Below, piece by piece: positions 1 to 64,000 of a DNA stretch of 64,000 bases; the first letter of the stretch is position 1; each line of letters opens with the position of its first letter. The translations under genes were made by a program, and so were the position numbers. Origin of the DNA: Hydractinia symbiolongicarpus (lineage: Eukaryota; Cnidaria; Hydrozoa; Anthoathecata; Hydractiniidae); NCBI RefSeq assembly GCF_029227915.1, contig NC_079879.1, positions 9,300,001-9,364,000 of the forward strand. The letters run 5' to 3'. A model generated the notes under the pieces. That model saw nothing but the letters and a program-made list of their open reading frames with translations. It made no database searches and was not told the origin of the DNA.

Positions 1-91
1 ATGAATTCACAGGACTGTTTTCTCTAGCGAACGGTGATATTTTAATCGATACAGAAATATACGTTCACTTTCCTATCACTGATTCTTGTAA

Positions 92-163
92 TGCCGTGAC
101 CAGGATTCGAACCTTGGTTATTGCGGCCACAACGCAATGTACTAACCACTATACGATCACGGC
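92..163 (-). tRNA. tRNA-His: tRNA-His (GUG), form A variant
   Basis: C50 to A breaks T-stem pair 50-64; all else fits the consensus. Confidence 0.85.
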
Positions 164-385
164 TCATATGAGATTGTTAGCCATATATGTCTTGTTCAAA
201 ACACTCTGCTGCAATGCGATGATTAAGAAGTAAATATCGTTATGTTTGAAGTCGATACACAACATAATTCGGTTATATAAAGAAAATAAACAAAATAAAT
301 GCATACGACTGTTTTCTCTAGCGAACGGAGGCAATTTAATTGATACAGAAGTACATGTTCATGATCCTATCACTGACTCTTGTAA

Positions 386-457
386 TGCCGTGACCAGAAT
401 TCGAACCTGGGTTATTGCGGCCACAACGCAATGTACTAACCACTATACCATCACGGC
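386..457 (-). tRNA. tRNA-His: tRNA-His (GUG), form A variant
   Basis: C61 to T (G53.U61 wobble) and C9 to G. The same pair of changes marks 1269, 3298 and 17827. Confidence 0.85.
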
Positions 458-680
458 TGATGTGAGATTGTTATCCATATATGTCTTGTAAAAACACTGT
501 GCTGCAATGCGTTGATTAAGAAATGTATTACGTTATGTTTGAAGTCGATACACACCATAATTTGGTGTAATAGAGAAAACAAGCAAGGTTAAAGCATCAG
601 GAGCTGTTCATCCAAGCGAACGGCGTCAATTTAATCGATACAGAAATATATGTTCACTTTCCTAACACTGATTCTTGTAA

Positions 681-752
681 TGCCGTGACCAGGATTCGAA
701 CCTGGGTTATTGCGGCCACAACGCAATGTACTAACCACTATACGATCACGGC
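681..752 (-). tRNA. tRNA-His: tRNA-His (GUG), form A, consensus copy
   Basis: Matches the consensus at all 72 bases. The cloverleaf is complete: 7-bp acceptor, TTGCG/CGCAA anticodon stem, four-base variable loop, CCAGG/CCTGG T stem. CCA is not encoded. G-1 is not encoded either (base -1 is not G), as expected where a guanylyltransferase adds it. Confidence 0.95.
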
Positions 753-974
753 CGATATAAGATTGTTAACCATATATGTCTTGTTCAAAACACTCTGCTG
801 CAATGCGATGATTAAGAAGTATATTTCGTTATGTTTGAAGTCGATACACAACATAATTCAGTGATATAAAGAAAATAAACAAAATGAATTCATAGGACTG
901 TTTTCTCTAGCGAACGGTGATATTTTAATCGATACAGAAATATACGTTCACTTTCCTATCACTGATTCTTGTAT

Positions 975-1046
975 TGCCGTGACCAGGATTTGAACCTTGG
1001 TTATTGCGGCCACAACGCAATGTACTAACCACTATACGATCACGAC
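975..1046 (-). tRNA. tRNA-His: tRNA-His (GUG), form A, degenerate
   Basis: G57 to A in the B box, C50 to A in the T stem and C2 to T (U2.G71). Probably weak. Confidence 0.75.
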
Positions 1047-1268
1047 TCATATGAGATTGTTAACCATATATGTCTTGTTCAAAACCCTCTGCTGCAATGC
1101 GATGATTAAGAAGTAAATTTCGTTATGTTTGAAGTCGATACACAACATAATTCGGTTATATAAAGAAAATAAACAAAATAAATGCATAGGACTGTTTTTT
1201 CTAGCGAACGGATGCAATTTAATTGATACAGAAGTACATGTTCACTATCCTATCACTGACTCTTGTAA

Positions 1269-1340
1269 TGCCGTGACCAGAATTCGAACCTGGGTTATTG
1301 CGGCCACAACGCAATGTACTAACCACTATACCATCACGGC
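1269..1340 (-). tRNA. tRNA-His: tRNA-His (GUG), form A variant
   Basis: C61 to T and C9 to G, as at 386. First unit of the 2029-bp duplication. Confidence 0.85.
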
Positions 1341-1563
1341 TGATGTGAGATTGTTATCCATATATGTCTTGTAAAAACACTGTGCTGCAATGCGTTGATT
1401 AAGAAATGTATTACGTTATGTTTGAAGTCGATACACACCATAATTTGGTGTAATAGAGAAAACAAGCGAAACTAAAGCATAAGGAGCTGTTCATCCAAGC
1501 GAACGGGGTCAATTTAATCGATACAGAAATATATGTTCACTTTCCTAACACTGATTCTTGTAA

Positions 1564-1635
1564 TGCCGCGACCAGGATTCGAACCTGGGTTATTGCGGCC
1601 ACAACGCAATTTACTAACCACCATACGATCACGGC
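1564..1635 (-). tRNA. tRNA-His: tRNA-His (GUG), form A variant
   Basis: A68 to G (U5.G68), C25 to A and A14 to G; the last changes a conserved A-box base. Confidence 0.8.
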
Positions 1636-1857
1636 CGATATAAGATTGTTAACCATATATGTCTTGTTCAAAACACTCTGCTGCAATGCGATGATTAAGA
1701 AGTATATTTCGTTATGTTTGAAGTCGACACACAACATAATTCAGTGATATAAAGAAAATAAACAAAATGAATTCGTAGGACTGTTTTCTCTAGCGAACAG
1801 AGACATTTTAATCCATACAGAAATATATGTTCACTTTTCTATCACTGATTCTTGTAA

Positions 1858-1929
1858 TGCCGTGACCAGGATTCGAACCTGGGTTATTGCGGCCACAACG
1901 CAATGTACTAACCACTATACAATCACGGG
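1858..1929 (-). tRNA. tRNA-His: tRNA-His (GUG), form A, 1-72 mismatch
   Basis: G1 is C, so pair 1-72 is C.C; also C9 to T. Confidence 0.8.
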
Positions 1930-2155
1930 TGATATAAGATTGTTAACCATATATGTCTTGTTCAAAACACTCTGCAGCAATGCGATGATTAAGAAGTATA
2001 TTTCGTTATGTTTGAAGTCGATACACAACATAATTCGGTTATTTAAAAAGAATAAACAAAATGAATGCATAAGACTGTTTTCTCTATCGAATCGCACGGA
2101 GACAATTTAATCGATACAGAAGTACACGTTAACTTCCTATCACAGATTCTTTTAA

Positions 2156-2227
2156 TGAAATGACCAGGATTCGAACCTGGGTTATTGCGGCCACAACGCA
2201 ATGAACTAACCACTACACGATCACGGA
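2156..2227 (-). tRNA. tRNA-His-like (GUG), form B
   Basis: T69-T71 in the acceptor 3' strand, G1 to T, A12 to G and A24 to T in the D arm. Acceptor pairing is poor; probably a pseudogene. Confidence 0.65.
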
Positions 2228-2449
2228 TTATGTGAGATTGTTAACTATACATGCCTTGTTAAAAACACTCTGCTGCAAGGCGATGATTAAGAAGTATATT
2301 ACGTTATCTTTGAAGCCGATACACAACATAATTCGGTGATATAAAGAAAATAACCAAAATGAATTCATAGGACTGTTTTCTCTAGCGAACAGAGACATTT
2401 TAATCGATACGGAAATACATGTTCACATTCTTATCACAGATTCTGGCAT

Positions 2450-2484
2450 TGCCGTTACCAGGATTCGAACCTGGCTTATACGGC
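2450..2484 (-). pseudogene. 35-bp mini-tRNA: acceptor plus T arm only
   Basis: The D arm, anticodon arm and variable loop are deleted. What is left is GCCGT paired with ACGGC, discriminator A, and a complete CCAGG/CCTGG T arm with intact B box. It has the shape of an acceptor-T minihelix. No A box. Confidence 0.8.
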
Positions 2485-2710
2485 TAATGTGAGATTGTTA
2501 ACTAAATATGTCTTGTTCAAAACACTCTGCTTCAATGCGATGATTAAGAAGTATATTTCGTTATGTTTGAAGTCGATACACAACATAATTCGGTTATTTA
2601 AAAAGAATAAACAAAATGAATGCATAAGACTGTTTTCTCTATCGAATCGCACGGAGACAATTTAATCGATACAGAAGTACACGTTAACTTCCTATCACAG
2701 ATTCTTCTAA

Positions 2711-2782
2711 CGAAATGACCAGGACTCGAACCTGGGTTATTGCGGCCACAACGCAATGTACTAACCACTATACGATCACGGC
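2711..2782 (-). tRNA. tRNA-His-like (GUG), form B
   Basis: T69-T71; discriminator is G73; A59 to G keeps the B box. Confidence 0.7.
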
Positions 2783-3003
2783 TGATAAAAGATTGTTAAC
2801 CATATATGTCTTGTTCAAAACACTCTGCTGCAATGCGATGATTAAGAAGTATATCTCGTTATGTTTGAAGTCGATACACAACATAATTCAGTTACTTAAA
2901 AAGAAAAAACAAAATGAATGCATAGGAATGTTTTCTCTATCGAACGAAGTCAATTTAATCGATACAGAAGTACACGTTAACTTCCTATCACAGATTCTTC
3001 CAA

Positions 3004-3075
3004 TGAAATGACCAGGATTCGAACCTGGGTTATTGCGGCCACAACGCAATGTACTAACCACTATACGATCACGAC
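3004..3075 (-). tRNA. tRNA-His-like (GUG), form B, crossover chimera
   Basis: Form B 3' strand joined to a 5' half with C2 to T, as in the copy at 975. This tRNA holds the left breakpoint of the second 2029-bp copy. Confidence 0.7.
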
Positions 3076-3297
3076 TCATATGAGATTGTTAACCATATAT
3101 GTCTTGTTCAAAACCCTCTGCTGCAATGCGATGATTAAGAAGTAAATTTCGTTATGTTTGAAGTCGATACACAACATAATTCGGTTATATAAAGAAAATA
3201 AACAAAATAAATGCATAGGACTGTTTTTTCTAGCGAACGGATGCAATTTAATTGATACAGAAGTACATGTTCACTATCCTATCACTGACTCTTGTAA

Positions 3298-3369
3298 TGC
3301 CGTGACCAGAATTCGAACCTGGGTTATTGCGGCCACAACGCAATGTACTAACCACTATACCATCACGGC
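3298..3369 (-). tRNA. tRNA-His: tRNA-His (GUG), form A variant
   Basis: Duplicate of 1269. Confidence 0.85.
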
Positions 3370-3592
3370 TGATGTGAGATTGTTATCCATATATGTCTTG
3401 TAAAAACACTGTGCTGCAATGCGTTGATTAAGAAATGTATTACGTTATGTTTGAAGTCGATACACACCATAATTTGGTGTAATAGAGAAAACAAGCGAAA
3501 CTAAAGCATAAGGAGCTGTTCATCCAAGCGAACGGGGTCAATTTAATCGATACAGAAATATATGTTCACTTTCCTAACACTGATTCTTGTAA

Positions 3593-3664
3593 TGCCGCGA
3601 CCAGGATTCGAACCTGGGTTATTGCGGCCACAACGCAATTTACTAACCACCATACGATCACGGC
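3593..3664 (-). tRNA. tRNA-His: tRNA-His (GUG), form A variant
   Basis: Duplicate of 1564. Confidence 0.8.
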
Positions 3665-3886
3665 CGATATAAGATTGTTAACCATATATGTCTTGTTCAA
3701 AACACTCTGCTGCAATGCGATGATTAAGAAGTATATTTCGTTATGTTTGAAGTCGACACACAACATAATTCAGTGATATAAAGAAAATAAACAAAATGAA
3801 TTCGTAGGACTGTTTTCTCTAGCGAACAGAGACATTTTAATCCATACAGAAATATATGTTCACTTTTCTATCACTGATTCTTGTAA

Positions 3887-3958
3887 TGCCGTGACCAGGA
3901 TTCGAACCTGGGTTATTGCGGCCACAACGCAATGTACTAACCACTATACAATCACGGG
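3887..3958 (-). tRNA. tRNA-His: tRNA-His (GUG), form A, 1-72 mismatch
   Basis: Duplicate of 1858. Confidence 0.8.
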
Positions 3959-4184
3959 TGATATAAGATTGTTAACCATATATGTCTTGTTCAAAACACT
4001 CTGCAGCAATGCGATGATTAAGAAGTATATTTCGTTATGTTTGAAGTCGATACACAACATAATTCGGTTATTTAAAAAGAATAAACAAAATGAATGCATA
4101 AGACTGTTTTCTCTATCGAATCGCACGGAGACAATTTAATCGATACAGAAGTACACGTTAACTTCCTATCACAGATTCTTTTAA

Positions 4185-4256
4185 TGAAATGACCAGGATT
4201 CGAACCTGGGTTATTGCAGCCACAACGCAATGAACTAACCACTACACGATCACGGA
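4185..4256 (-). tRNA. tRNA-His-like (GUG), form B
   Basis: Duplicate of 2156 with C39 to T added (G31.U39), the only difference seen in the 2029-bp copy. Confidence 0.65.
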
Positions 4257-4478
4257 TTATGTGAGATTGTTAACTATACATGCCTTGTTAAAAACACTCT
4301 GCTGCAAGGCGATGATTAAGAAGTATATTACGTTATCTTTGAAGCCGATACACAACATAATTCGGTGATATAAAGAAAATAACCAAAATGAATTCATAGG
4401 ACTGTTTTCTCTAGCGAACAGAGACATTTTAATCGATACGGAAATACATGTTCACATTCTTATCACAGATTCTGGCAT

Positions 4479-4513
4479 TGCCGTTACCAGGATTCGAACC
4501 TGGCTTATACGGC
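4479..4513 (-). pseudogene. 35-bp mini-tRNA
   Basis: Duplicate of the minihelix at 2450. Confidence 0.8.
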
Positions 4514-4739
4514 TAATGTGAGATTGTTAACTAAATATGTCTTGTTCAAAACACTCTGCTTCAATGCGATGATTAAGAAGTATATTTCGTTATGTTTGAA
4601 GTCGATACACAACATAATTCGGTTATTTAAAAAGAATAAACAAAATGAATGCATAAGACTGTTTTCTCTATCGAATCGCACGGAGACAATTTAATCGATA
4701 CAGAAGTACACGTTAACTTCCTATCACAGATTCTTCTAA

Positions 4740-4811
4740 CGAAATGACCAGGACTCGAACCTGGGTTATTGCGGCCACAACGCAATGTACTAACCACTAT
4801 ACGATCACGGC
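4740..4811 (-). tRNA. tRNA-His-like (GUG), form B
   Basis: Duplicate of 2711 (G73). Confidence 0.7.
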
Positions 4812-5032
4812 TGATAAAAGATTGTTAACCATATATGTCTTGTTCAAAACACTCTGCTGCAATGCGATGATTAAGAAGTATATCTCGTTATGTTTGAAGT
4901 CGATACACAACATAATTCAGTTACTTAAAAAGAAAAAACAAAATGAATGCATAGGAATGTTTTCTCTATCGAACGAAGTCAATTTAATCGATACAGAAGT
5001 ACACGTTAACTTCCTATCACAGATTCTTCCAA

Positions 5033-5104
5033 TGAAATGACCAGGATTCGAACCTGGGTTATTGCGGCCACAACGCAATGTACTAACCACTATACGATCA
5101 CGGC
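5033..5104 (-). tRNA. tRNA-His-like (GUG), form B
   Basis: T69-T71 are the only changes. Right end of the duplication falls in this tRNA. Confidence 0.7.
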
Positions 5105-5328
5105 TGATGTGAGATTGTTATCTATATATGTCTTGTTCAAAACACTGTGCTGCAATGCGTTGATTAAGAAATGTATTACGTTATGTTTGAAGTCGATACA
5201 CAACATAATTCCGTGTAATAGAGAAAACAAGCAAAGTTAAAGCATCAGGAGCTGTTCATCCAAGCGAACGGGGTCAATTTAATCGATACAGAAATATATG
5301 TTCACTTTCCTATCACTGATTCTTGTAC

Positions 5329-10301: not shown

Positions 10302-10307
10302 TGCTAA

Positions 10308-13564: not shown

Positions 13565-13785
13565 TGATATAAGATTGTTAACCATATATGTTTTGTTCAA
13601 AACACTCTGCTGCAATGCGATGATTAAGAAGTATATTTCGTTATGTTTGAAGTCGATACACAATATAATTCGGTTATTTAAAAAGAATACAGGAAATGAA
13701 TGCATAGGACTGTTTTCTCTATGGAACGGAGACAATTTAATCGATACACAAGTACCCGTTAACTTCCTATCACAGATTCTTCCAA

Positions 13786-13838
13786 TGAGATGACCAGGAT
13801 TCAAACCTGGGTTATTGCATCCATAACGCAATGTACTA
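13786..13838 (-). pseudogene. Truncated tRNA-His, 5' third missing, anticodon ATG
   Basis: Form B-type 3' end (70 is C), C56 to T, C39 to T, C38 to A, and G34 to A giving ATG. The tRNA stops within the D arm and runs into spacer (actgttttctctatcg), with microhomology act at the joint. A box is lost. Confidence 0.75.
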
Positions 13839-13914
13839 CTGTTTTCTCTATCGAACGAAGTCAATTAAATCGATACAGAAGTACACGTTAACTTCCTATC
13901 ACAGATTCTTCCAA

Positions 13915-13986
13915 TGAAATGACCAGGATTCGAACCTGGGTTATTGCGGCCACAACGCAATGTACTAACCACTATACGATCACGGC
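13915..13986 (-). tRNA. tRNA-His-like (GUG), form B
   Basis: Only the form B changes; lies 129 bp from the truncated copy. Confidence 0.7.
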
Positions 13987-18193: not shown

Positions 18194-18415
18194 CGATAAA
18201 AGATTGTTAACCATATTTGTCTTGTTTAAAACACTCTGCTGCAATGCGATGATTAAGAAGTATATTTCGTTATGTTTGAAGTCGATACACAACATAATTC
18301 GGTGATATAAAGAAAATAAACAAAATGAATTCATAGGACTGTTTTCTCTAGCGAACAGAGACATTTTAATCCATACAGAAATATATGTTCACTTTTCTAT
18401 CACTGATTCTTGAAA

Positions 18416-18487
18416 TGCCGTGACCAGGACTCGAACCTGGGTTATTGCGGCCACAACGCAATGTACTAACCACTATACGATCACCGG
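18416..18487 (-). tRNA. tRNA-His: tRNA-His (GUG), form A, 5' acceptor altered
   Basis: The 5' strand reads CCGGTGA, as if one base had been inserted and G1 lost. A59 to G. Confidence 0.7.
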
Positions 18488-18708
18488 TGATATAAGATTG
18501 TTAACCATATATGTCTTGTTCAAAACACTCTGCTGCAATGCGATGATTAAGAAGTATATTTCGTTATGTTTGAAGTCGATACACAACATAATTCGGTTAT
18601 TTAAAAAGAATAAACAAAATGAATGCATAGGACTGTTTTCTCTATGGAACGGAGACAATTTAATCGATACAGAAGTACACGTTAACTTCCTATCGCAGAT
18701 TCTTCTAA

Positions 18709-18780
18709 TGAAATGACCAGGATGCGAACCTGGGTTATTGCGGCCACAACGCAATGTACTAACCACTATATGATCACGGC
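18709..18780 (-). tRNA. tRNA-His-like (GUG), form B
   Basis: A58 to C and G10 to A. Confidence 0.6.
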
Positions 18781-19001
18781 TGATATAAGATTGTTAACCA
18801 TATATGTCTTGTTCAAAACACTCTGCTGCAATGCGATGATTAAGAAGTATATTTCGTTATGTTTGAAGTCGATACACAACATAATTCGGTTATTTAAAAA
18901 GAAAAAACAAAATGAATGCATAGGACTGTTTTCTCTATCGAACGAAGTCAATTTAATCGATACACAAGTACACGTTAACTTCCTATCACAGATTCTTCCA
19001 A

Positions 19002-19073
19002 TGAGAAGACCAGGATTCGAACCAGGGTTATTGCGGCCACAACTCAATGTACTAACCACTATACGATCACGGT
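19002..19073 (-). tRNA. tRNA-His-like (GUG), form C with A1
   Basis: 3' strand TCTTCTCA against ACCGTGA leaves few acceptor pairs; A51 to T gives T51.T63. B box intact. Confidence 0.55.
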
Positions 19074-19296
19074 GATGTGAGATTGTTATCTGTATATGTC
19101 TTGTTCAAAGCACTGAGCTGCAATGCGTTCATTAAGAAATGTATTACGTTATTTTTGAAGTCGATACACAACATAATTCGGTGTAATAGAGAAAACAAGC
19201 AAAATTAAAGCATCAGGAGCTGTTCATCCAAGCGAACGGGATCAATTTAATCGATACAGAAATTCATGTTCACTTTCCTATCACTGATTCTTGTAA

Positions 19297-19368
19297 TGCC
19301 GTGACCAGGATTCGAACCTCGGTTATTGCGGCCACAACGCAATGTACTAACCACTATACGATCACGGC
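19297..19368 (-). tRNA. tRNA-His: tRNA-His (GUG), form A variant
   Basis: C50 to G gives G50.G64 in the T stem. Confidence 0.82.
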
Positions 19369-19589
19369 TGATATAAGATTGTTAACCATATATGTCTTGT
19401 TCAAAACACTCTTCTGCAATGCGATGATTAAGAAGTATATTTCGTTATGTTTGAAGTCGATACACAACATAATTCGGTTATTTAAAAAGAATAAACAAAA
19501 TGAATGCATAGGACTGTTTTCTCTATGGAACGGAGACAATTTAATCGATACAGAAGTACACGTTAACTTCCTATCACAGATTCTTCTAG

Positions 19590-19661
19590 TGAAATGACCA
19601 GGACACGAACCTGGGTTATTGCAGCCACAACGCAATATACTAACCACTATATGATCACGGC
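19590..19661 (-). tRNA. tRNA-His-like (GUG), form B
   Basis: A58 to T, A59 to G, C39 to T, C25 to T, G10 to A. Confidence 0.58.
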
Positions 19662-19882
19662 TGATATAAGATTGTTAACCATATATGTCTTGTTCAAAAC
19701 ACTCTGCTGCAATGCGATGATTAAGAAGTATATTTCGTTATGTTTGAAGTCGATACACAACATAATTCGGTTATTTAAAAAGAAAAAACAAAATGAATGC
19801 ATAGGACTGTTTTCTCTATCGAACGAAGTCAATTTAATCGATACACAAGTACACGTTAACTTCCTATCACAGATTCTTCCAA

Positions 19883-19954
19883 TGAGAAGACCAGGATTCG
19901 AACCAGGGTTATTGCGGCCACAACTCAATGTACTAACCACTATACGATCACGGT
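19883..19954 (-). tRNA. tRNA-His-like (GUG), form C with A1
   Basis: Copy of 19002 in the 881-bp repeat. Confidence 0.55.
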
Positions 19955-20177
19955 GATGTGAGATTGTTATCTGTATATGTCTTGTTCAAAGCACTGAGCT
20001 GCAATGCGTTCATTAAGAAATGTATTACGTTATTTTTGAAGTCGATACACAACATAATTCGGTGTAATAGAGAAAACAAGCAAAATTAAAGCATCAGGAG
20101 CTGTTCATCCAAGCGAACGGGATCAATTTAATCGATACAGAAATTCATGTTCACTTTCCTATCACTGATTCTTGTAA

Positions 20178-20249
20178 TGCCGTGACCAGGATTCGAACCT
20201 CGGTTATTGCGGCCACAACGCAATGTACTAACCACTATACGATCACGGC
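20178..20249 (-). tRNA. tRNA-His: tRNA-His (GUG), form A variant
   Basis: Copy of 19297 (C50 to G). Confidence 0.82.
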
Positions 20250-20470
20250 TGATATAAGATTGTTAACCATATATGTCTTGTTCAAAACACTCTTCTGCAA
20301 TGCGATGATTAAGAAGTATATTTCGTTATGTTTGAAGTCGATACACAACATAATTCGGTTATTTAAAAAGAATAAACAAAATGAATGCATAGGACTGTTT
20401 TCTCTATGGAACGGAGACAATTTAATCGATACAGAAGTACACGTTAACTTCCTATCACAGATTCTTCTAG

Positions 20471-20542
20471 TGAAATGACCAGGACACGAACCTGGGTTAT
20501 TGCAGCCACAACGCAATATACTAACCACTATATGATCACGGC
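20471..20542 (-). tRNA. tRNA-His-like (GUG), form B
   Basis: Copy of 19590. Confidence 0.58.
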
Positions 20543-20763
20543 TGATATAAGATTGTTAACCATATATGTCTTGTTCAAAACACTCTGCTGCAATGCGATG
20601 ATTAAGAAGTATATTTCGTTATGTTTGAAGTCGATACACAACATAATTCCGTTATTTAAAAAGAAAAAAGAAAATGAATGCATAGGACTGTTTTCTCTAT
20701 CAAACGAAGTCAATTTAATCGATACACAAGTACACGTTAACTTCCTATCATAGATTCTTCCAA

Positions 20764-20835
20764 TGAGAAGACCAGGATTCGAACCAGGGTTATTGCAGCC
20801 ACAACGCAATGTACTAACCACTATACGATCACGGT
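20764..20835 (-). tRNA. tRNA-His-like (GUG), form C with A1
   Basis: As 19002, with C39 to T. Confidence 0.55.
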
Positions 20836-21058
20836 GATGTGAGATTGTTATCTGTATATGTCTTGTTCAAAGCACTGAGCTGCAATGCGTTCATTAAGAA
20901 ATGTATTACGTTATTTTTGAAGTCGATACACAACATAATTCGGTGTAATAGAGAAAACAAGCAAAATTAAAGCGTCAGGAGCTGTTCATCCAAGCGAACG
21001 GGGTCAATTTAATCGATACAGAATTTCATGTTCACTTTCCTATCACTGATTCTTGTAA

Positions 21059-21130
21059 TGCCGTGACCAGGATTCGAACCTCGGTTATTGCGGCCACAAC
21101 GCAATGTACTAACCACTATACGATCACGGC
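21059..21130 (-). tRNA. tRNA-His: tRNA-His (GUG), form A variant
   Basis: C50 to G. Confidence 0.82.
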
Positions 21131-21351
21131 TGATATAAGATTGTTAACCATATATGTCTTGTTCAAAACACTCTGCTGCAATGCGATGATTAAGAAGTAT
21201 ATTTCGTTATGTTTGAAGTCGATACACAACATAATTCGGTTATTCAAAAACAATAAACAAAATGAATGCATAGGACTGTTTTCTCTATGGAACGGAGACA
21301 ATTTAAACGATACAGAAGTACACGTTAACTTCCTATCACAGATTCTTCTAA

Positions 21352-21423
21352 TGAAATGACCAGGACTCGAACCTGGGTTATTGCGCCCACAACGCAATGT
21401 ACTAACCACTATATGATTACGGC
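21352..21423 (-). tRNA. tRNA-His-like (GUG), form B
   Basis: C38 to G in the anticodon loop, G10 to A, G6 to A. Confidence 0.6.
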
Positions 21424-21644
21424 TGATATAAGATTGTTAACCATATATGTCTTGTTCAAAACACTCTTCTGCAATGCGATGATTAAGAAGTATATTTCGT
21501 TATGTTTGAAGTCGATACACAACATAATTCGGTTATTTAAAAAGAATAAACAAAATGAATGCATAGGACTGTTTTCTCTATGGAACGGAGACAATTTAAT
21601 CGATACAGAAGTACACGTTAACTTCCTATCACAGATTCTTCTAA

Positions 21645-21716
21645 TGAAATGACCAGGACTCGAACCTGGGTTATTGCAGCCACAACGCAATGTACTAACC
21701 ACTATATGATCACGGC
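21645..21716 (-). tRNA. tRNA-His-like (GUG), form B
   Basis: C39 to T and G10 to A. Confidence 0.65.
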
Positions 21717-22232: not shown

Positions 22233-22304
22233 TGCCGTGACCAGGATTCGAAACTGGGTTATTGCGGCCACAACGCAATGTACTAACCACTATACGATCA
22301 CGGC
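22233..22304 (-). tRNA. tRNA-His: tRNA-His (GUG), form A variant
   Basis: G53 to T in B box and T stem. Confidence 0.78.
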
Positions 22305-22522
22305 TTATGTTAGATTGACTATACATGCCTTGCTCAAAACACTCTGCTGCAAGGCGATGATTAAGAAGTATATTACATTATGTTTGAAGCCGATACACAA
22401 CATAATTTGGTGATATAAAGAAAATAACAAAATTAATTCATAGGACTGTTTTCTCTAGCGAACGGAGATATTTTAATCGATACAGAAATATGTGTTCACT
22501 TTCCTATCACTGATTCTTGTAA

Positions 22523-22535
22523 TGCCGATCACGGC
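22523..22535 (-). pseudogene. 13-bp remnant of a deleted tRNA-His
   Basis: Only the outer acceptor ends remain (tgccg joined to atcacggc). The joint shares cg with both sides, so a microhomology deletion removed about 59 bp. The spacer around it is intact. Confidence 0.8.
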
Positions 22536-22758
22536 TGATGTGAGATTGTTATCTATATATGTCTTGTTCAAAACACTGTGCTGCAATGCGTTGATTAAGA
22601 AATGTATTACGTTATGTTTGAAGTCGATACACAACATAATTCGGTGTAATAGAAAAAACAAGCAAAATTAAAGCATCAGGAGCTGTTCATCCAAGCGAAC
22701 GAGGTCAATTTAATCAATACAGAAATATATGTCACTTTCCTATCACTGATTCTTGTAA

Positions 22759-22771
22759 TGCCGATCACGGC
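22759..22771 (-). pseudogene. 13-bp remnant of a deleted tRNA-His
   Basis: The identical deletion in the next monomer, so the event happened once and was then duplicated. Confidence 0.8.
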
Positions 22772-22984
22772 TGATGTGAGATTGTTATCTATATATGTCT
22801 TGTTCAAAACACTGTGCTGCAATGCGTTGATTAAGAAATGTATTACGTTATGTTTGAAGTCGATAAATAACATAATTCGGTGTAATAGGGAAATCAAGCA
22901 AAATTAAAGCATCAGGAGCTGTTCATCCAAGCGAACGGGGTCAATTTAATCAATACAGAAATATATGTTCACTTTCCTATTCCT

Positions 22985-23019
22985 ACAACGCAATGTACTA
23001 ACCACTATACGATCACGGC
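22985..23019 (-). pseudogene. tRNA-His 5' half only
   Basis: Acceptor 5' strand, D arm and anticodon-stem 5' side remain; the anticodon loop 3' side, T arm and B box are gone. Third damaged unit in a row. Confidence 0.8.
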
Positions 23020-23241
23020 TATGTGAGATTGTTATCCATATATGTCTTGTAAAAACACTGTGCTGCAATGCGTTGATTAAGAAATGTATTACGTTATGTT
23101 TGAAGTTGATACACAACATAATTTGGTGTAATAGAGAAAACAAGCAAAATTAAAGCATCAGAAGCTGGTCATCCAAGCGAACGGGGTCAATTTAATCGAT
23201 ACAGAAATATATGTTCACTTTCCTATCACTGATTCTTGTAA

Positions 23242-23313
23242 TGTCGTGACCAGGATTCGAACCTGGGTTATTGCGGCCACAACGCAATGTACTAACCACT
23301 ATACGATCACGTC
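23242..23313 (-). tRNA. tRNA-His: tRNA-His (GUG), form A variant
   Basis: C2 to A and G71 to A give A2.A71. Confidence 0.8.
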
Positions 23314-35851: not shown

Positions 35852-35923
35852 TGCCGTGACCAGGATTCGAACCTGGGTTATTGCGGCCACAACGCAATGT
35901 ACTAACCACTATACGATCACGGC
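35852..35923 (-). tRNA. tRNA-His: tRNA-His (GUG), form A, consensus copy
   Basis: Copy of 33512. Confidence 0.95.
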
Positions 35924-36145
35924 TGATATAAGATTGTTAACCATATATGTCTTGTTCAAAACACTCTGCTGCAATGCTATGATTAAGAAGTATATTTTGT
36001 TATGTTTGAAGTCGATACACAACATAATTCGGTTATTTAAAAAGAAAAAACAAAATGAATGCATAGGACTGTTTTCTCTATCGAACGAAGTCAATTTAAT
36101 CGACACATAAATATATGTTCACTTTCCTATCACTGATTCTTGTAA

Positions 36146-36217
36146 TGCCGTGACCAGGATTCGAACCTGGGTTATGGCGGCCACAACGCAATGTACTAAC
36201 CACTATACGATCACGGC
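36146..36217 (-). tRNA. tRNA-His: tRNA-His (GUG), form A variant
   Basis: Copy of 33806. Confidence 0.85.
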
Positions 36218-36435
36218 TTATGTTAGATTGACTATACATGCCTTGTTCAAAACACTCTGCTGCAAGGCGATGATTAAGAAGTATATTAAGTTATGTTTGA
36301 AGCCGATACACAACATAATTCGGTGATATAAAGAAAACAACAAAATTAATTTATAGGACTGTTTTCTCTAGCGAACAGAGATATTTTAATCGATACAAAA
36401 ATATATGTTCACTTTCCTATCACTGATTCTTGTAT

Positions 36436-36507
36436 CGCCGTGACCAGGATTCGAACCTGGGTTATTGCGGCCACAACGCAATGTACTAACCACTATACGA
36501 TCACGGT
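36436..36507 (-). tRNA. tRNA-His: tRNA-His (GUG), form A with A1, G73
   Basis: Copy of 34096; units 7 and 8 are missing after it. Confidence 0.75.
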
Positions 36508-36722
36508 GATGTGAGATTGTTATCTGTATATGTCTTGTTCAAACCACTGAGCTGCAATGCGTTGATTAAGAAATGTATTACGTTAGTCGATACACAACAT
36601 AATCCGGTGTAATAGAGAAAACAAGCAAAATTAAAGCATCAGGAGCTGTTCATCCAGGCGAACGGGGTCAATTTAATCGATACAGAAATATATGTTCACT
36701 TTCCTATCACTGATTCTTGTAA

Positions 36723-36794
36723 TGCCGTGACCAGGATTCGAACCTGGGTTATGGCGGCCACAACGCAATGTACTAACCACTATACGATCACGTC
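36723..36794 (-). tRNA. tRNA-His: tRNA-His (GUG), form A variant
   Basis: Copy of 32632; starts eight-mer copy 3. Confidence 0.8.
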
Positions 36795-37015
36795 CGATAT
36801 AAGATTGTTAACCAAATATGTCTTGTTCAAAACACTCTGCTGCAATGCGATGATTAAGAAGTATATTTCGTTATGTTTGAAGTCGATACACAACATAATT
36901 CGGTTATTTAAAAAGAATAAACAAAATGAATGCATAGGCCTGTTTTCTCTATCGAACGGAGACAATTTAATCGATACAGAAGTACACGTTAACTTCCTAT
37001 CACAGATTCTGCTAA

Positions 37016-37087
37016 TGAAATGACCAGGATGCGAACCTGGGTTATTGCGGCCACAACGCAATGTACTAACCACTATACGATCACGGC
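37016..37087 (-). tRNA. tRNA-His-like (GUG), form B
   Basis: Copy of 32925. Confidence 0.62.
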
Positions 37088-37308
37088 TGATATAAGATTG
37101 TTAACCATATATGTCTTGTTCAAAACACTCTGCTGCAATGCGATGATTAAGAAGTATATTTCGTTATGTTTGAAGTCGATACACAACATAATTCAGTTAT
37201 TTAAAAAGAAAAAACAAAATGAATGCATAGGAGGGTTTTCTCTATCGAACGAAGTCAATTTAATCGATACAGAAGTACACGTTAACTTGCTATCACAGAT
37301 TCTTCTAA

Positions 37309-37380
37309 TGAAATGACCAGGATTCGAGCCTCGGTTATTGCGGCCACAACGCAATGTACTAACCACTATACGATCACGGC
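37309..37380 (-). tRNA. tRNA-His-like (GUG), form B
   Basis: Copy of 35558. Confidence 0.62.
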
Positions 37381-37602
37381 TGTTGTGAGATTGTTATCTA
37401 TATATGTCTTGTTCAAAACACTGTGCTGCAGTGCGTTGATTATGAAATGTATTATGTTTTGTTTGAAGTCGATGCACAACATAATTCGGTTAGATAAAGA
37501 AAATAAACAAAATAAATGCATAGGACTGTTTTCTCTAGCGAACGGAGACAACTTAATTGATACAGAAGTACATGTTCACTATCCTATCACTGACTCTTGT
37601 AA

Positions 37603-37674
37603 TGCCGTGACCAGGATTCGAACCTGGGTTATTGCGGCCACAACGCAATGTACTAACCACTATACGATCACGGC
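37603..37674 (-). tRNA. tRNA-His: tRNA-His (GUG), form A, consensus copy
   Basis: Copy of 33512. Confidence 0.95.
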
Positions 37675-37896
37675 TGATATAAGATTGTTAACCATATATG
37701 TCTTGTTCAAAACACTCTGCTGCAATGCTATGATTAAGAAGTATATTTTGTTATGTTTGAAGTCGATACACAACATAATTCGGTTATTTAAAAAGAAAAA
37801 ACAAAATGAATGCATAGGACTGTTTTCTCTATCGAACGAAGTCAATTTAATCGACACATAAATATATGTTCACTTTCCTATCACTGATTCTTGTAA

Positions 37897-37968
37897 TGCC
37901 GTGACCAGGATTCGAACCTGGGTTATGGCGGCCACAACGCAATGTACTAACCACTATACGATCACGGC
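37897..37968 (-). tRNA. tRNA-His: tRNA-His (GUG), form A variant
   Basis: Copy of 33806. Confidence 0.85.
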
Positions 37969-38186
37969 TTATGTTAGATTGACTATACATGCCTTGTTCA
38001 AAACACTCTGCTGCAAGGCGATGATTAAGAAGTATATTAAGTTATGTTTGAAGCCGATACACAACATAATTCGGTGATATAAAGAAAACAACAAAATTAA
38101 TTTATAGGACTGTTTTCTCTAGCGAACAGAGATATTTTAATCGATACAAAAATATATGTTCACTTTCCTATCACTGATTCTTGTAT

Positions 38187-38258
38187 CGCCGTGACCAGGA
38201 TTCGAACCTGGGTTATTGCGGCCACAACGCAATGTACTAACCACTATACGATCACGGT
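38187..38258 (-). tRNA. tRNA-His: tRNA-His (GUG), form A with A1, G73
   Basis: Copy of 34096. Confidence 0.75.
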
Positions 38259-38473
38259 GATGTGAGATTGTTATCTGTATATGTCTTGTTCAAACCACTG
38301 AGCTGCAATGCGTTGATTAAGAAATGTATTACGTTAGTCGATACACAACATAATCCGGTGTAATAGAGAAAACAAGCAAAATTAAAGCATCAGGAGCTGT
38401 TCATCCAGGCGAACGGGGTCAATTTAATCGATACAGAAATATATGTTCACTTTCCTATCACTGATTCTTGTAA

Positions 38474-38545
38474 TGCCGTGACCAGGATTCGAACCTGGGT
38501 TATTGCGGCCACAACGCAATGTACTAACCACTATACGATCACGGC
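38474..38545 (-). tRNA. tRNA-His: tRNA-His (GUG), form A, consensus copy
   Basis: Copy of 34383. Confidence 0.95.
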
Positions 38546-38766
38546 TGATATAAGATTGTTAACCATATATGTGTTGTTCAAAACACTCTGCTGCAATGCG
38601 ATGATTAAGAAGTATATTTCGATATGTTTGAAGACGATACGCAACATAATTCGGTTATTTAAAAAGAATAAACAAAATGAATGCATAGGACTGTTTTCTC
38701 TATGGAACGGAGACAATTTAATCGATACAGAAGTACACGTTAACTTCCTATCACAGATTCTTCTAA

Positions 38767-38838
38767 CGAAATGGCCAGGATTCGAACCTGGGTTATTGCG
38801 GCCACAACGCAATGTACTAACCATTATACGATCACGGC
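38767..38838 (-). tRNA. tRNA-His-like (GUG), form B, G73
   Basis: Copy of 34676. Confidence 0.64.
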
Positions 38839-39062
38839 TGATGTGAGATTGTTATCTATATATGTCTTGTTCAAAACACTGTGCTGCAATGCGTTGATTA
38901 AGAAATGTATTACGTTATGTTTGAAGTCGATACACAACATAATTCGGTGTAATAGAGAAAACAAGCAAAATTAAAGCATCAGGAGCTGCTCATCCAAGCG
39001 AACGGGGTCAATTTAATCGATACAGAAATATATGTTCACTTTCCTATCACTGATTCTTGTAA

Positions 39063-39134
39063 TGCCGTGACCAGGATTCGAACCTGGGTTATGGCGGCCA
39101 CAACGCAATGTACTAACCACTATACGATCACGTC
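39063..39134 (-). tRNA. tRNA-His: tRNA-His (GUG), form A variant
   Basis: Copy of 32632; starts eight-mer copy 4. Confidence 0.8.
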
Positions 39135-39355
39135 CGATATAAGATTGTTAACCAAATATGTCTTGTTCAAAACACTCTGCTGCAATGCGATGATTAAGAA
39201 GTATATTTCGTTATGTTTGAAGTCGATACACAACATAATTCGGTTATTTAAAAAGAATAAACAAAATGAATGCATAGGCCTGTTTTCTCTATCGAACGGA
39301 GACAATTTAATCGATACAGAAGTACACGTTAACTTCCTATCACAGATTCTGCTAA

Positions 39356-39427
39356 TGAAATGACCAGGATGCGAACCTGGGTTATTGCGGCCACAACGCA
39401 ATGTACTAACCACTATACGATCACGGC
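39356..39427 (-). tRNA. tRNA-His-like (GUG), form B
   Basis: Copy of 32925. Confidence 0.62.
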
Positions 39428-39648
39428 TGATATAAGATTGTTAACCATATATGTCTTGTTCAAAACACTCTGCTGCAATGCGATGATTAAGAAGTATATT
39501 TCGTTATGTTTGAAGTCGATACACAACATAATTCAGTTATTTAAAAAGAAAAAACAAAATGAATGCATAGGAGGGTTTTCTCTATCGAACGAAGTCAATT
39601 TAATCGATACAGAAGTACACGTTAACTTGCTATCACAGATTCTTCTAA

Positions 39649-39720
39649 TGAAATGACCAGGATTCGAGCCTCGGTTATTGCGGCCACAACGCAATGTACT
39701 AACCACTATACGATCACGGC
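39649..39720 (-). tRNA. tRNA-His-like (GUG), form B
   Basis: Copy of 35558. Confidence 0.62.
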
Positions 39721-39942
39721 TGTTGTGAGATTGTTATCTATATATGTCTTGTTCAAAACACTGTGCTGCAGTGCGTTGATTATGAAATGTATTATGTTTT
39801 GTTTGAAGTCGATGCACAACATAATTCGGTTAGATAAAGAAAATAAACAAAATAAATGCATAGGACTGTTTTCTCTAGCGAACGGAGACAACTTAATTGA
39901 CACAGAAGTACATGTTCACTATCCTATCACTGACTCTTGTAA

Positions 39943-40014
39943 TGCCGTGACCAGGATTCGAACCTGGGTTATTGCGGCCACAACGCAATGTACTAACCAC
40001 TATACGATCACGGC
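39943..40014 (-). tRNA. tRNA-His: tRNA-His (GUG), form A, consensus copy
   Basis: Copy of 33512. Confidence 0.95.
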
Positions 40015-40236
40015 TGATATAAGATTGTTAACCATATATGTCTTGTTCAAAACACTCTGCTGCAATGCTATGATTAAGAAGTATATTTTGTTATGTTTGA
40101 AGTCGATACACAACATAATTCGGTTATTTAAAAAGAAAAAACAAAATGAATGCATAGGACTGTTTTCTCTATCGAACGAAGTCAATTTAATCGACACATA
40201 AATATATGTTCACTTTCCTATCACTGATTCTTGTAA

Positions 40237-40308
40237 TGCCGTGACCAGGATTCGAACCTGGGTTATGGCGGCCACAACGCAATGTACTAACCACTATACG
40301 ATCACGGC
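40237..40308 (-). tRNA. tRNA-His: tRNA-His (GUG), form A variant
   Basis: Copy of 33806. Confidence 0.85.
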
Positions 40309-40526
40309 TTATGTTAGATTGACTATACATGCCTTGTTCAAAACACTCTGCTGCAAGGCGATGATTAAGAAGTATATTAAGTTATGTTTGAAGCCGATAC
40401 ACAACATAATTCGGTGATATAAAGAAAACAACAAAATTAATTTATAGGACTGTTTTCTCTAGCGAACAGAGATATTTTAATCGATACAAAAATATATGTT
40501 CACTTTCCTATCACTGATTCTTGTAT

Positions 40527-40598
40527 CGCCGTGACCAGGATTCGAACCTGGGTTATTGCGGCCACAACGCAATGTACTAACCACTATACGATCACGGT
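40527..40598 (-). tRNA. tRNA-His: tRNA-His (GUG), form A with A1, G73
   Basis: Copy of 34096. Confidence 0.75.
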
Positions 40599-40813
40599 GA
40601 TGTGAGATTGTTATCTGTATATGTCTTGTTCAAACCACTGAGCTGCAATGCGTTGATTAAGAAATGTATTACGTTAGTCGATACACAACATAATCCGGTG
40701 TAATAGAGAAAACAAGCAAAATTAAAGCATCAGGAGCTGTTCATCCAGGCGAACGGGGTCAATTTAATCGATACAGAAATATATGTTCACTTTCCTATCA
40801 CTGATTCTTGTAA

Positions 40814-40885
40814 TGCCGTGACCAGGATTCGAACCTGGGTTATTGCGGCCACAACGCAATGTACTAACCACTATACGATCACGGC
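40814..40885 (-). tRNA. tRNA-His: tRNA-His (GUG), form A, consensus copy
   Basis: Copy of 34383. Confidence 0.95.
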
Positions 40886-41106
40886 TGATATAAGATTGTT
40901 AACCATATATGTGTTGTTCAAAACACTCTGCTGCAATGCGATGATTAAGAAGTATATTTCGATATGTTTGAAGACGATACGCAACATAATTCGGTTATTT
41001 AAAAAGAATAAACAAAATGAATGCATAGGACTGTTTTCTCTATGGAACGGAGACAATTTAATCGATACAGAAGTACACGTTAACTTCCTATCACAGATTC
41101 TTCTAA

Positions 41107-41178
41107 CGAAATGGCCAGGACTCGAACCTGGGTTATTGCGGCCACAACGCAATGTACTAACCACTATACGATCACGGT
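41107..41178 (-). tRNA. tRNA-His-like (GUG), form B with A1, G73
   Basis: 3' end as unit 8, then A59 to G and A1 from another monomer: the right breakpoint of the eight-mer repeat. Confidence 0.6.
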
Positions 41179-41401
41179 GATGTGAGATTGTTATCTGTAT
41201 ATGTCTTGTACAAACCACTGAGCTGCAATGCGTTGATTAAGAAATGTATTACGTTATGTTTGAAGTCCTTACACAACATAATTCGGTATAATAGAGAAAA
41301 CAAGCAAAATTAAAGCATCAGGAGCTGTTCATCCAAGCGAACGGGGTCAATTTAATCGATACAGAAATATATGTTCACTTTCCTATCACTGATTCTTGTA
41401 A

Positions 41402-48812: not shown

Positions 48813-48831
48813 TGATATAAGATTGTTTACC

Positions 48832-61667: not shown

Positions 61668-61739
61668 TGAAATGACCAGGACTCTAACCTGGGTTATTGC
61701 GGCCACAACGCAACATACTAACCACTATACGATCTCGGC
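61668..61739 (-). tRNA. tRNA-His-like (GUG), form B
   Basis: C56 to A, T5 to A, A26 to G, C25 to T. Confidence 0.55.
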
Positions 61740-61961
61740 TCATATGAGATTGTTAACCATATATGTCTTGTTCAAAACACTCTGCTGCAATGCGATGATT
61801 AAGAAGTATATTTCGTTATGTTTGAAGTCGATACACAACATAATTCGGTTATTTAAAAAGAATAAACAAAATGAATGCATAGGACTGTTTTGTCTAGCGA
61901 ACAGAGACATTTTAATCGATACAGAAATATATGTTCACTTTGCTATCACTGACTCTTGCAA

Positions 61962-62033
61962 TGCCGTGACCAGGATTCGAACCTGGGTTATTGCGGCCAC
62001 AACGCAATGTACTAACCACTATACGATCACGGC
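61962..62033 (-). tRNA. tRNA-His: tRNA-His (GUG), form A, consensus copy
   Basis: Matches the consensus at every base. Confidence 0.95.
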
Positions 62034-62254
62034 TGATATAAGATTGTTAACCATATATGTCTTGTTCAAAACACTCTGCTGCAATGCGATGATTAAGAAG
62101 TATATTTCGTTATGTTTGAAGTCGATACACAACATAATTCGGTTATTTAAAAAGAAAAAACAAAATGAAGGCATCGGACTGTTTTCTCTATCGAACGAAG
62201 TCAATTTAATCGATACAGAAGTACACGTTAACTTCCTATCACAGATTCTTCCAA

Positions 62255-62326
62255 TGAAATGACCAGGATTCGAACCTGGGTTATTGCGGCCACAACGCAA
62301 TGTACTAACCATTATACGATCACGGC
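62255..62326 (-). tRNA. tRNA-His-like (GUG), form B
   Basis: One D-loop change (ccattat). Confidence 0.68.
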
Positions 62327-62550
62327 TGATGTGAGATTGTTATCTATATATGTCTTGTTCAAAACACTGTGCTGCAATGCGTTGATTAAGAAATGTATTA
62401 CGTTATGTTTGAAGTCGATACACAACATAATTCGGTGTAATAGAGAAAACAAGCAAAATTAAAACATCAGGAGCTGCTCATCCAAGCAAACGGGGTCAAT
62501 TTAATCGATACAGAAATATATGTTCACTTTCCTATCACTGACTCTTGTAA

Positions 62551-62622
62551 TACCGTGACCAGGATTCGAACCTGGGTTATTGCGGCCACAACGCAATGTA
62601 CTAACCACTATACGATCACGGC
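62551..62622 (-). tRNA. tRNA-His: tRNA-His (GUG), form A variant
   Basis: C72 to T only (G1.U72). Confidence 0.85.
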
Positions 62623-62840
62623 TTATGTTAGATTGACTATACATGCCTTGTTCAAAACACCCTGCTGCAAGGCGATGATTAAGAAGTATATTACGTTATG
62701 TTTGAAGCCGATACACAACATAATTTGGCGATATAAAGAAAATAACAAAATTAATTCATAGGACTGTTTTCTCTAGCGAACGGAGATATTTTATTCGATA
62801 CAGAAATATATGTTCACTTTCCTATCACTGATTCTTGTAA

Positions 62841-62912
62841 TGCCGTGACCAGGATTCGAACCTGGGTTATTGCAGCCACAACGCAAGGTACTAACCACTA
62901 TACGATCACGGC
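62841..62912 (-). tRNA. tRNA-His: tRNA-His (GUG), form A variant
   Basis: C39 to T and A26 to C. Confidence 0.83.
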
Positions 62913-63133
62913 TCATATGAGATTGTTAACCATATATGTCTTGTTCAAAACACTCTGCTGCAATGCGATGATTAAGAAGAAAATTTCGTTATGTTTGAAG
63001 CCGATACACAACATAATTCGGTTATATAAAGAAAATAAACAAAATAAATGCATAGGACTGTTTTCTCTAGCGAACGGAGACAATTTAATTGATACAGAAG
63101 TACACGTTAACTTCCTATCACAGATTCTGCTAA

Positions 63134-63205
63134 TGAAATGACCAGGATGCGAACCTGGGTTATTGCGGCCACAACGCAATGTACTAACAACTATACGATC
63201 ACGGC
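63134..63205 (-). tRNA. tRNA-His-like (GUG), form B
   Basis: A58 to C and one D-loop change. Confidence 0.6.
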
Positions 63206-63426
63206 TGATATAAGATTGTTAACCATATATGTCTTGTTCAAAACACTCTGCTGCAATGCGATGATTAAGAAGTATATTTTGTTATGTTTGAAGTCGCTAC
63301 ACAACATTATTCGGTGATATAAAGAGAATAACAAAATGAATTCATAGGACTGTTTTCTCTAGCGAACGGAGATATTTTAATCGATACAGAAATATCTGTT
63401 CACTTTCTTATCCCTGATTCTTGTAA

Positions 63427-63498
63427 TGCCGTGACCAGGATTCGAACCTGGGTTATTGCAGCCACAACGCAAGGTACTAACCACTATACGATCACGGC
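63427..63498 (-). tRNA. tRNA-His: tRNA-His (GUG), form A variant
   Basis: C39 to T and A26 to C. Confidence 0.83.
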
Positions 63499-63720
63499 TC
63501 ATATGAGATTGTTAACCATATATGTCTTGTTCAAAACACTCTGCTGCAATGCGATGATTAAGAAGTAAATTTCGTTATGTTTGAAGTCAATACACAACAT
63601 AATTCGGTTATATAAAGAAAATAAACAAAATAAATGCATAGGACTGTTTTCTCTAGCGAACGGAGACAATTTAATTGATACAGAAGTACATGTTCACTAT
63701 CCTATCACTGATTCTTGTAA

Positions 63721-63792
63721 TGCCGTGACCAGGATTCGAACCTGGGTTATTGCGGCCACAACGCAATGTACTAACCACTATACGATCACGGC
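63721..63792 (-). tRNA. tRNA-His: tRNA-His (GUG), form A, consensus copy
   Basis: Matches the consensus at every base; last tRNA in the window. Confidence 0.95.
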
Positions 63793-64000
63793 TGATATAA
63801 GGTTGTTAACCATATATGTCTTGTTCAAAACACTCTGCCGCAATGCGTTGATTAAGAAGTATATTTCGTTATGTTTTAAGTCGATACACAACATAATTCG
63901 GTGTAATAGAGAAAACAAGCAAAATTAAAGCATCAGGAGCTGCTCATCCAAGTGAACGGGGTCAATTTAATCGATACAGAAATATATGTTCACTTTCCTA

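Follow-up and report, generated by a model that had tools for sequence, protein, structure and literature searches.

Why is one tRNA gene repeated in succession on a single strand, and are its copies still genes? This question is raised by the window, a stretch of 64,000 nucleotides from Hydractinia symbiolongicarpus (1..64000, minus strand) that consists of head-to-tail units of about 294 bp, each with one tRNA-His(GTG) or a derivative of it. The preferred answer, given a probability of roughly 55%, is a tRNA gene array that evolves as satellite DNA and whose intact copies are still weakly selected.

Structure and extent of the array

ARAGORN predicted 195 tRNAs in the window, all on the minus strand, comprising 190 His(GTG) and five with other anticodons. 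With the Rfam tRNA model, 211 matches reached the gathering score, and all 150 matches listed were on the minus strand. Autocorrelation peaked, in order, at 293 bp, 588 and 294. A unit profile returned 226 rows on a single strand, including 206 near-complete units, and left 228 of the 64,000 bases uncovered. The tandem repeat of tRNA-His on one strand described in a first-pass annotation was thereby borne out. Its figure of 211 full-length copies equalled the Rfam count, but "full-length" was overstated. Among the 206 near-complete units, the acceptor 3' arm was canonical in 100, had one common broken version in 83 and was neither in 23. The monomers had also been called uninterrupted. Nearly the whole window was covered, but a run of shortened units (about 236 bp; 22295..23243) and 129-bp duplications within units (13709..13967 and 16148-16405) were present on the minus strand, together with a local duplication of 319 bp at 9978-10620.

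The window is the inner part of an array of about 305 kb at C5:9.2275-9.533 Mb in a genome of 481 Mb. Its left limit lies at about C5:9,227,502 and its right limit between 9,532,691 and 9,533,500; an array open at both ends was thus correct for the window but not for the locus. About 1,000 units were estimated from the assembled length, each comprising one tRNA-His gene and about 220 bp of spacer. Two samples at the left edge held other sequence. The outermost units and part-units sampled were more diverged, with about 115-250 bits against about 270-335 for inner full units. In the neighbourhood of the array on C5, a single weak part-unit occurred at 9.008 Mb and inverted diverged units at 9.209 Mb. 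A GPCR-like frame was seen near the array, and a search for its relatives returned one unnamed protein.

Higher-order repeats were frequent on the minus strand. Segments at 925..5257 repeated with an offset of 2,029 bp (about 97% identical), and those at 18334..21647 with an offset of 881 bp or three monomers (about 97.5%). The region 31985..41208 showed offsets of 2,340 and 4,091 bp with 97-99% identity, including the longest exact repeat of the window, 2,554 bp at 33256 and 37347. From about 42000 to 64000, dimers pairing an intact-family unit with a broken-family one were common. Exactly repeated segments would suit a multiplication of a few units during assembly, the case named beforehand as refuting the array. 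However, no exact repeat exceeded 2,554 bp, units 1 to 24 places apart in the window differed by 10-13% on average, 199 distinct tRNA sequences were present among 364 sampled units, and a 35-Mb contig encloses the array with non-array sequence to its left and right, which makes such an artefact hardly credible.

Four main spacer families (B, C, D and t) alternate non-randomly and are interleaved in short higher-order repeats. Neighbours belonged to the same family in 48 of 341 cases, compared with 103±8 in shuffles, and changes between t and the other families numbered 209 against 161±9. The consensus of three families held the canonical tRNA; in that of family t, three altered acceptor bases disrupt the acceptor stem. 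The locus combines the same tRNA gene in one orientation in successive units, as in a tandem tRNA array, with the long tandem extent, divergent units, multi-unit repeats and more diverged edges of satellite DNA with higher-order repeats. It appears to show a gene family turning into satellite DNA.

Variation in intact and broken copies

Unit statistics were calculated from samples spanning 114 of the approximately 305 kb. Units with fewer than 270 aligned positions (206-unit window set) or fewer than 265 (larger sample) were dropped, as were alignment columns with more than 30% gaps. Identical units entered the trees once, leaving 176 for the window and 329 for the 114-kb sample. Among the 364 units of this sample, 202 had the canonical acceptor, 129 were broken and 33 were of neither class; these 33 were omitted from tests of intact against broken copies. 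The copy at 681..752 (minus) is an example of an intact tRNA, identical to the consensus with 65.7 bits, and that at 2156..2224 (minus) is a broken one, with TCATTTC in place of TCACGGC in the acceptor 3' arm. The commonest exact tRNA sequence accounted for 26 of the 195 ARAGORN predictions. The features of a canonical tRNA-His (cloverleaf, GTG, A73 and internal promoter) were found in the consensus and in some copies, not in the broken class. All stems paired, with GTG and no gap, in 80 of the 202 canonical-acceptor units, 3 of the 33 others and none of the 129 broken units. A satellite made of tRNA-His genes, as the locus had been termed, fits its anatomy but not its many units of one broken class. 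The array further shows to what extent possibly unexpressed copies can swell tRNA counts taken from annotation.

The array holds its own internal control: intact copies of the gene stand next to broken ones in one locus, which allows a direct measurement of selection on a redundant tRNA gene. In intact copies, 75 rare and 4 common variants fell in the tRNA and 210 and 70 in the spacer (odds ratio 0.16, p = 3.1e-5). The corresponding numbers in broken copies were 45 and 8 against 153 and 39 (odds ratio 0.70, p = 0.44). The two odds ratios differed with p = 0.030; the p values of this and several related tests are uncorrected for the number of tests. The tRNA window of intact copies, at 0.060, lay below every one of the 160 spacer windows, which overlap one another (minimum 0.194), and that of broken copies within the spacer-window range. 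In single families, the contrast was clear in C (0.216, against 0.404 for the lowest spacer window) and weak in B (0.175 against 0.169). The tRNA-to-spacer ratio on terminal tree branches was 0.89 in intact and 1.41 in broken copies (p = 0.005). Internal branches showed no such difference (0.58 vs 0.64, p = 0.79), nor did singletons, which leaned the opposite way (1.24 intact vs 0.92 broken, p = 0.55).

These data bear on a second reading, possible but held with less confidence, of a tRNA-His gene caught in a tandem amplification and now functionless, its conservation stemming from recent spread and gene conversion. The 129 broken units of the sample, the equal frequency of rare variants in tRNA and spacer of intact copies, and the similarity of intact and broken copies in singletons and internal branches are all in line with a passive satellite. 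It accounts poorly for the depletion of common tRNA variants in intact but not in broken copies, and for an exactly canonical consensus tRNA common to three spacer families. Positions 1-64 of the tRNA were identical across the four family consensuses (0/64 differ), which differed by 7-16% in the spacer. Chance values for 0/64 are not independent, since 19 of 23 differences between families B and C lay within one spacer part. Part of the conservation is attributed to shared ancestry or gene conversion, because the broken family keeps this body consensus and its body outside the boxes varies less than its spacer.

The internal promoter could also be what is kept, with A and B boxes retained for TFIIIC binding (insulator, boundary or replication pausing) and not for a tRNA. 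The A box was exact in 155 of the 202 intact copies. An exact B box was present in 173 of these and in 85 of the 129 broken copies, which together with the absence of near terminators would suit such an element. However, the non-consensus fraction in intact copies was 0.018 in the boxes, 0.025 in the rest of the body and 0.088 in the spacer, the body being about as conserved as the boxes. In broken copies, the boxes varied as much as the spacer (0.0495 vs 0.043) and the body outside them less (0.020). A chromatin element is thus very improbable.

Terminators and dispersed tRNA-His genes

Five dispersed tRNA-His genes were found outside the array, each identical to the array consensus (72/72) and followed by TTTT at 2-8 nt. 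No array copy whose 3' half is intact had TTTT within 25 nt; the seven matches genome-wide belonged to five loci, none on C5. The array totals of 428 intact 3' halves and 581 exact cores were inferred beyond the places listed. The nearest TTTT to any of the 206 window units was 34 nt away, and the first lay at 89-92 nt in 184 of them. Near T-run terminators are thus a property of the five genes and not of the array, and with five ordinary genes present the array is not the sole tRNA-His supply of the genome. Both observations, the missing near terminators and the presence of ordinary genes, are just as compatible with a silent, passive satellite.

On the preferred reading, a tRNA-His gene would have been parted from its terminator and then amplified by unequal exchange, giving an array that now evolves in the manner of satellite DNA. 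Judging from sequence, the intact families may be used, now or until recently, as RNA polymerase III genes, with transcripts that would extend about 90 nt beyond the tRNA to the first T-run. Weak selection against bad copies would let new variants arise freely but seldom reach high frequency, and the broken family would spread as a passenger beside the intact ones. Everyday tRNA-His would probably come mainly from the five dispersed genes, with the array at most a reserve or stage-specific source.

A specialised supply of extra tRNA-His for one tissue or stage, such as for a histidine-rich product, would be analogous to the Arabidopsis SYY cluster for a Ser/Tyr-rich protein. Hundreds of copies with intact parts could serve it, and a known tandem tDNA cluster is described as silent in most tissues and active in root cap cells (PMC12308677). 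The broken class, however, makes up much of the array. Further giant tRNA arrays occur in the same genome, of tRNA-Glu on C11 and of a seven-gene unit on C3, and the Glu array suggests a general tendency over histidine demand, leaving a histidine-specific supply improbable. A broader proposal is speculative and rather unlikely. It would divide the tRNA genes of this genome into a few dispersed ones that have near terminators and giant arrays of a single isoacceptor, His on C5 and Glu on C11, whose copies would have lost them and would yield precursors with long 3' trailers (about 90 nt for His). Such arrays would supply tRNA, or RNA derived from it, separately and under regulation, with intact copies under selection and broken copies as regular partners. 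Should the difference in terminators between array copies and dispersed genes turn out to be general, it would suggest that array tRNA genes form a class of their own whose transcripts are unusual.

The trailers of three family consensuses folded no more unusually than mononucleotide shuffles (z 1.26, -0.54 and -0.70), which lends no support to a second RNA within the unit. Mutation was no faster at CpG sites than at the remaining C and G positions (CpG o/e 1.23), giving no sign of germline methylation. A tRNA-derived SINE was rejected for the exact patterns used, which diverged dispersed copies would escape: exact cores belonged to the array (listed or inferred) and to the five genes, which have different flanks. 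In viral contigs, no exact match was found to a word taken from the spacer or to one from the tRNA, and the spacer word had none in prokaryote genomes. No let-7 match was returned from the genome itself, a result that does not establish its absence.

Comparison with other tRNA arrays

Single-isoacceptor arrays are already known; this one is larger, has higher-order repeats and lacks near terminators. The array had been called unusual, but long arrays of one isoacceptor are published for other organisms, and it is not the only giant tRNA array in this genome. A close likeness is found in Nippostrongylus brasiliensis, an animal genome for which PMC5765664 describes long single-isoacceptor arrays: a tRNA-Trp unit of about 200 bp recurs close to 150 times, and tRNA-Ser, with spacers of 80 bp, 90 times. 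The Hydractinia array differs from those described there in its isoacceptor, tRNA-His, its approximately 1,000 units in about 305 kb, its four families in higher-order repeats, one of them broken, and its terminator contrast. No tRNA-His array in an animal was named in the open-licence literature searched.

According to PMC2652664, the protist Entamoeba has tandem arrays of tRNA units as well as dispersed tRNA genes; one such unit, [H-GTG] of E. equi, holds a single gene. Its account of an E. histolytica isolate has most copies of a unit uniform and gives no clear evidence of nonfunctional copies, in contrast to the 10-13% divergence and interleaved broken family found here. The Arabidopsis SYY tRNA-Ser/Tyr cluster likewise has tandem tRNA genes alongside others elsewhere in the genome but, as presented in PMC12308677, differs in being from a plant, in its mixed isoacceptors and in its known expression. 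With 27 Tyr-Tyr-Ser repeats (cited in PMC11700998), it is far smaller than the present array. The maize tRNA-Ile cluster is, like the array here, a single-isoacceptor tandem repeat, and its 28 copies are reported as the longest in the survey of PMC11700998. Human 1q23.3 is similar as a tandem repeat containing tRNA genes with unstable copy number, but its unit is given as 7.3 kb, with 9-43 copies per allele (PMC4041453).

Array anatomy and extent

The whole window is a single array. A profile derived from the unit spanned all but 228 of its 64,000 bases, and 206 near-complete units were found. The top autocorrelation period was 293 bp, with 588 bp in second rank, and Tandem Repeats Finder covered nearly the entire window, mainly with 293-298-bp units at 84-88% matches, in agreement with the monomers of about 294 bp described in the first-pass annotation. 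Its estimate of about 211 tRNA copies was reproduced by 211 Rfam tRNA matches that reached the gathering score (150 of the 211 listed), and its assignment of all copies to one strand by ARAGORN, whose 195 predicted tRNAs, 190 of them His(GTG), all lay on the minus strand. The description of these copies as full-length goes too far: 100 of the 206 near-complete units kept the canonical acceptor 3' arm (intact copies). A shared CATTTC change was present in 83 (broken copies) and neither form in 23.

Contig C5, on which the window occupies positions 9,300,001-9,364,000, accounts for 35.0 Mb of the 480.9 Mb assembly of 76 contigs. By sampling, the array extended from about C5:9,227,502 to 9,532,691, and the sample starting at C5:9,533,501 was without array units. 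The span of 305 kb corresponds to about 1,040 unit lengths, but the true unit number is lower because two left-edge samples, at C5:9,233,001 and 9,245,001, hold other sequence. Outermost units and part-units had profile scores of 115-250 bits, compared with about 270-335 for inner full units. The anatomy of the array is as secure as the assembly. Diverged, inverted units were present at C5:9,209,129-9,209,713 (positions 9129-9713 of sampled stretch L013), some 18 kb before the left edge of the array, and a lone weak part-unit at C5:9.008 Mb (8345-8484 of L017). About 20 kb to the right of the array, a reading frame had one relative in the protein search, bearing PF00001, the rhodopsin-like GPCR family; on this basis the genome probably belongs to an animal.

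Unit families and probable weak selection on the tRNA

In the 114-kb sample, 364 units comprised 202 canonical, 129 broken and 33 with neither acceptor form. Spacer clustering assigned them to families t (145 units), B (105), C (82) and D (27), with five stray units. Broken copies made up 121 of the 145 members of family t. The family consensuses were identical at tRNA positions 1-64, and that of family t carried three changed acceptor-arm bases, at a computed cost of 10 kcal/mol in the cloverleaf. Families alternated, with 48 same-family neighbours among 341 observed versus 103±8 expected. Longer repeats at offsets of 881, 2,029, 2,340 and 4,091 bp showed 97-99% identity, and the longest exact repeat was 2,554 bp. 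Each of the four family consensuses had ATATAT ahead of the tRNA, some 25 to 20 bases upstream.

We read the locus, with a probability of roughly 0.55, as a tRNA gene array that evolves as a satellite and whose intact families are weakly selected. Continuing weak selection on intact copies is supported but not proven, with the internal control of broken copies in support. All p values below are nominal, each for a single test among several. Rare (<2%) to common (>=5%) variants of intact copies numbered 75/4 in the tRNA versus 210/70 in the spacer (odds ratio 0.16, p=3.1e-5). Broken copies showed 45/8 versus 153/39 (odds ratio 0.70, p=0.44), and the two odds ratios differed (p=0.030). The tRNA window of intact copies fell below all 160 mutually overlapping spacer windows, which that of broken copies did not. 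Terminal-branch tRNA/spacer rates, taken from a tree with 329 distinct units, were 0.89 for intact and 1.41 for broken copies (p=0.005); a window-only tree of 176 distinct units gave the same direction (p=0.12). Among unit pairs of the window, the tRNA/spacer divergence ratio exceeded 1 where spacer divergence was low and fell to 0.2 where it was high. Boxes and body were both conserved in intact copies, while box variation in broken copies approximated that of the spacer, which favours constraint on the tRNA itself over TFIIIC binding.

Several results count against selection, however. Intact and broken copies did not differ on the internal branches of the 329-unit tree (p=0.79) or in singletons, which leaned the opposite way (1.24 intact, 0.92 broken, p=0.55). 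Inside single families, the contrast between tRNA and spacer windows was weak in B and unmeasurable in D. The body of broken copies outside the boxes also varied less than the spacer (0.020 vs 0.043), and part of the conservation pattern could be a product of gene conversion. A purely passive satellite is a serious, though less favoured, alternative to weakly selected intact families.

Dispersed genes and terminators

Exact matching of a 26-base tRNA-His core with wildcards gave 586 matches genome-wide (3 forward, 583 reverse); among the matches listed, one was on C4 and the remainder in the C5 array. The 114 kb of sampled array held 248, a density that would predict 663 for the array, so nearly all core matches probably belong to it, and subtracting five dispersed genes would leave 581. 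A pattern for the 3' half (T arm and acceptor) matched 434 times, which suggests 428 intact 3' halves in the array after subtraction of the dispersed genes and an inverted orphan. With TTTT added within 25 nt, all seven genome-wide matches were listed; they represented five loci on C4, C6, C12 and C14 (two), and none was on C5. These five dispersed genes were identical to the array consensus at 72/72 positions, had flanks different from the array, and in each TTTT began 2-8 nt past the tRNA. In the window, TTTT within 25 nt followed none of the 81 copies holding the 3'-half pattern. In 184 of the 206 units, the distance from the tRNA to the first TTTT was 89-92 nt; the shortest distance, in five units, was 34 nt. 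The intact array copies may be transcribed.

A second single-isoacceptor array, of tRNA-Glu(CTC), was found from C11:19,234,069 to at least 19,394,443 (L064), with a unit of 531 bp in the 3.5 kb read. Exact tRNA-Glu cores numbered 151 and, among the matches listed, one was on C6. All seven C11 copies read were without a near terminator, the first TTTT following 74-181 nt behind the B box, and a tRNA-Glu gene of slightly different sequence on C14 had a T-run immediately after it. Together with tRNA-His, this gives the terminator contrast in two tRNAs, for Glu from seven arrayed copies and one dispersed copy only. It is improbable that such arrays form a separate, terminator-less class of tRNA genes that yield products of their own.

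Precedents and other tandem repeats

A tRNA gene repeat is known from Xenopus. Single-isoacceptor tRNA arrays are already in print: one article reports tRNA-Trp and tRNA-Ser arrays in Nippostrongylus (PMC5765664), and another an [H-GTG] array unit in Entamoeba (PMC2652664). In the open-licence literature searched, no precedent was found for the array size, for a higher-order structure that includes a broken partner family or for the terminator contrast.

A giant array on C3 (e.g. L024, L025, L026 and L027) consisted of units of about 1.3 kb with up to seven tRNA genes on both strands: Asp, Lys, Ala, Leu with intron, Tyr with intron, Met and Ala. Exact tRNA-Asp cores numbered 453 genome-wide. 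Median distances to TTTT were 0-18 nt for these genes, with Lys (184) as the exception. TTAGGG was not found in the first 10 kb of C5 (L023) and C3 (L028), which in both contigs were occupied by a 203-bp satellite. Shortly before the seven-gene array of C3, positions 1-4666 of L025 held a 373-bp tandem repeat.
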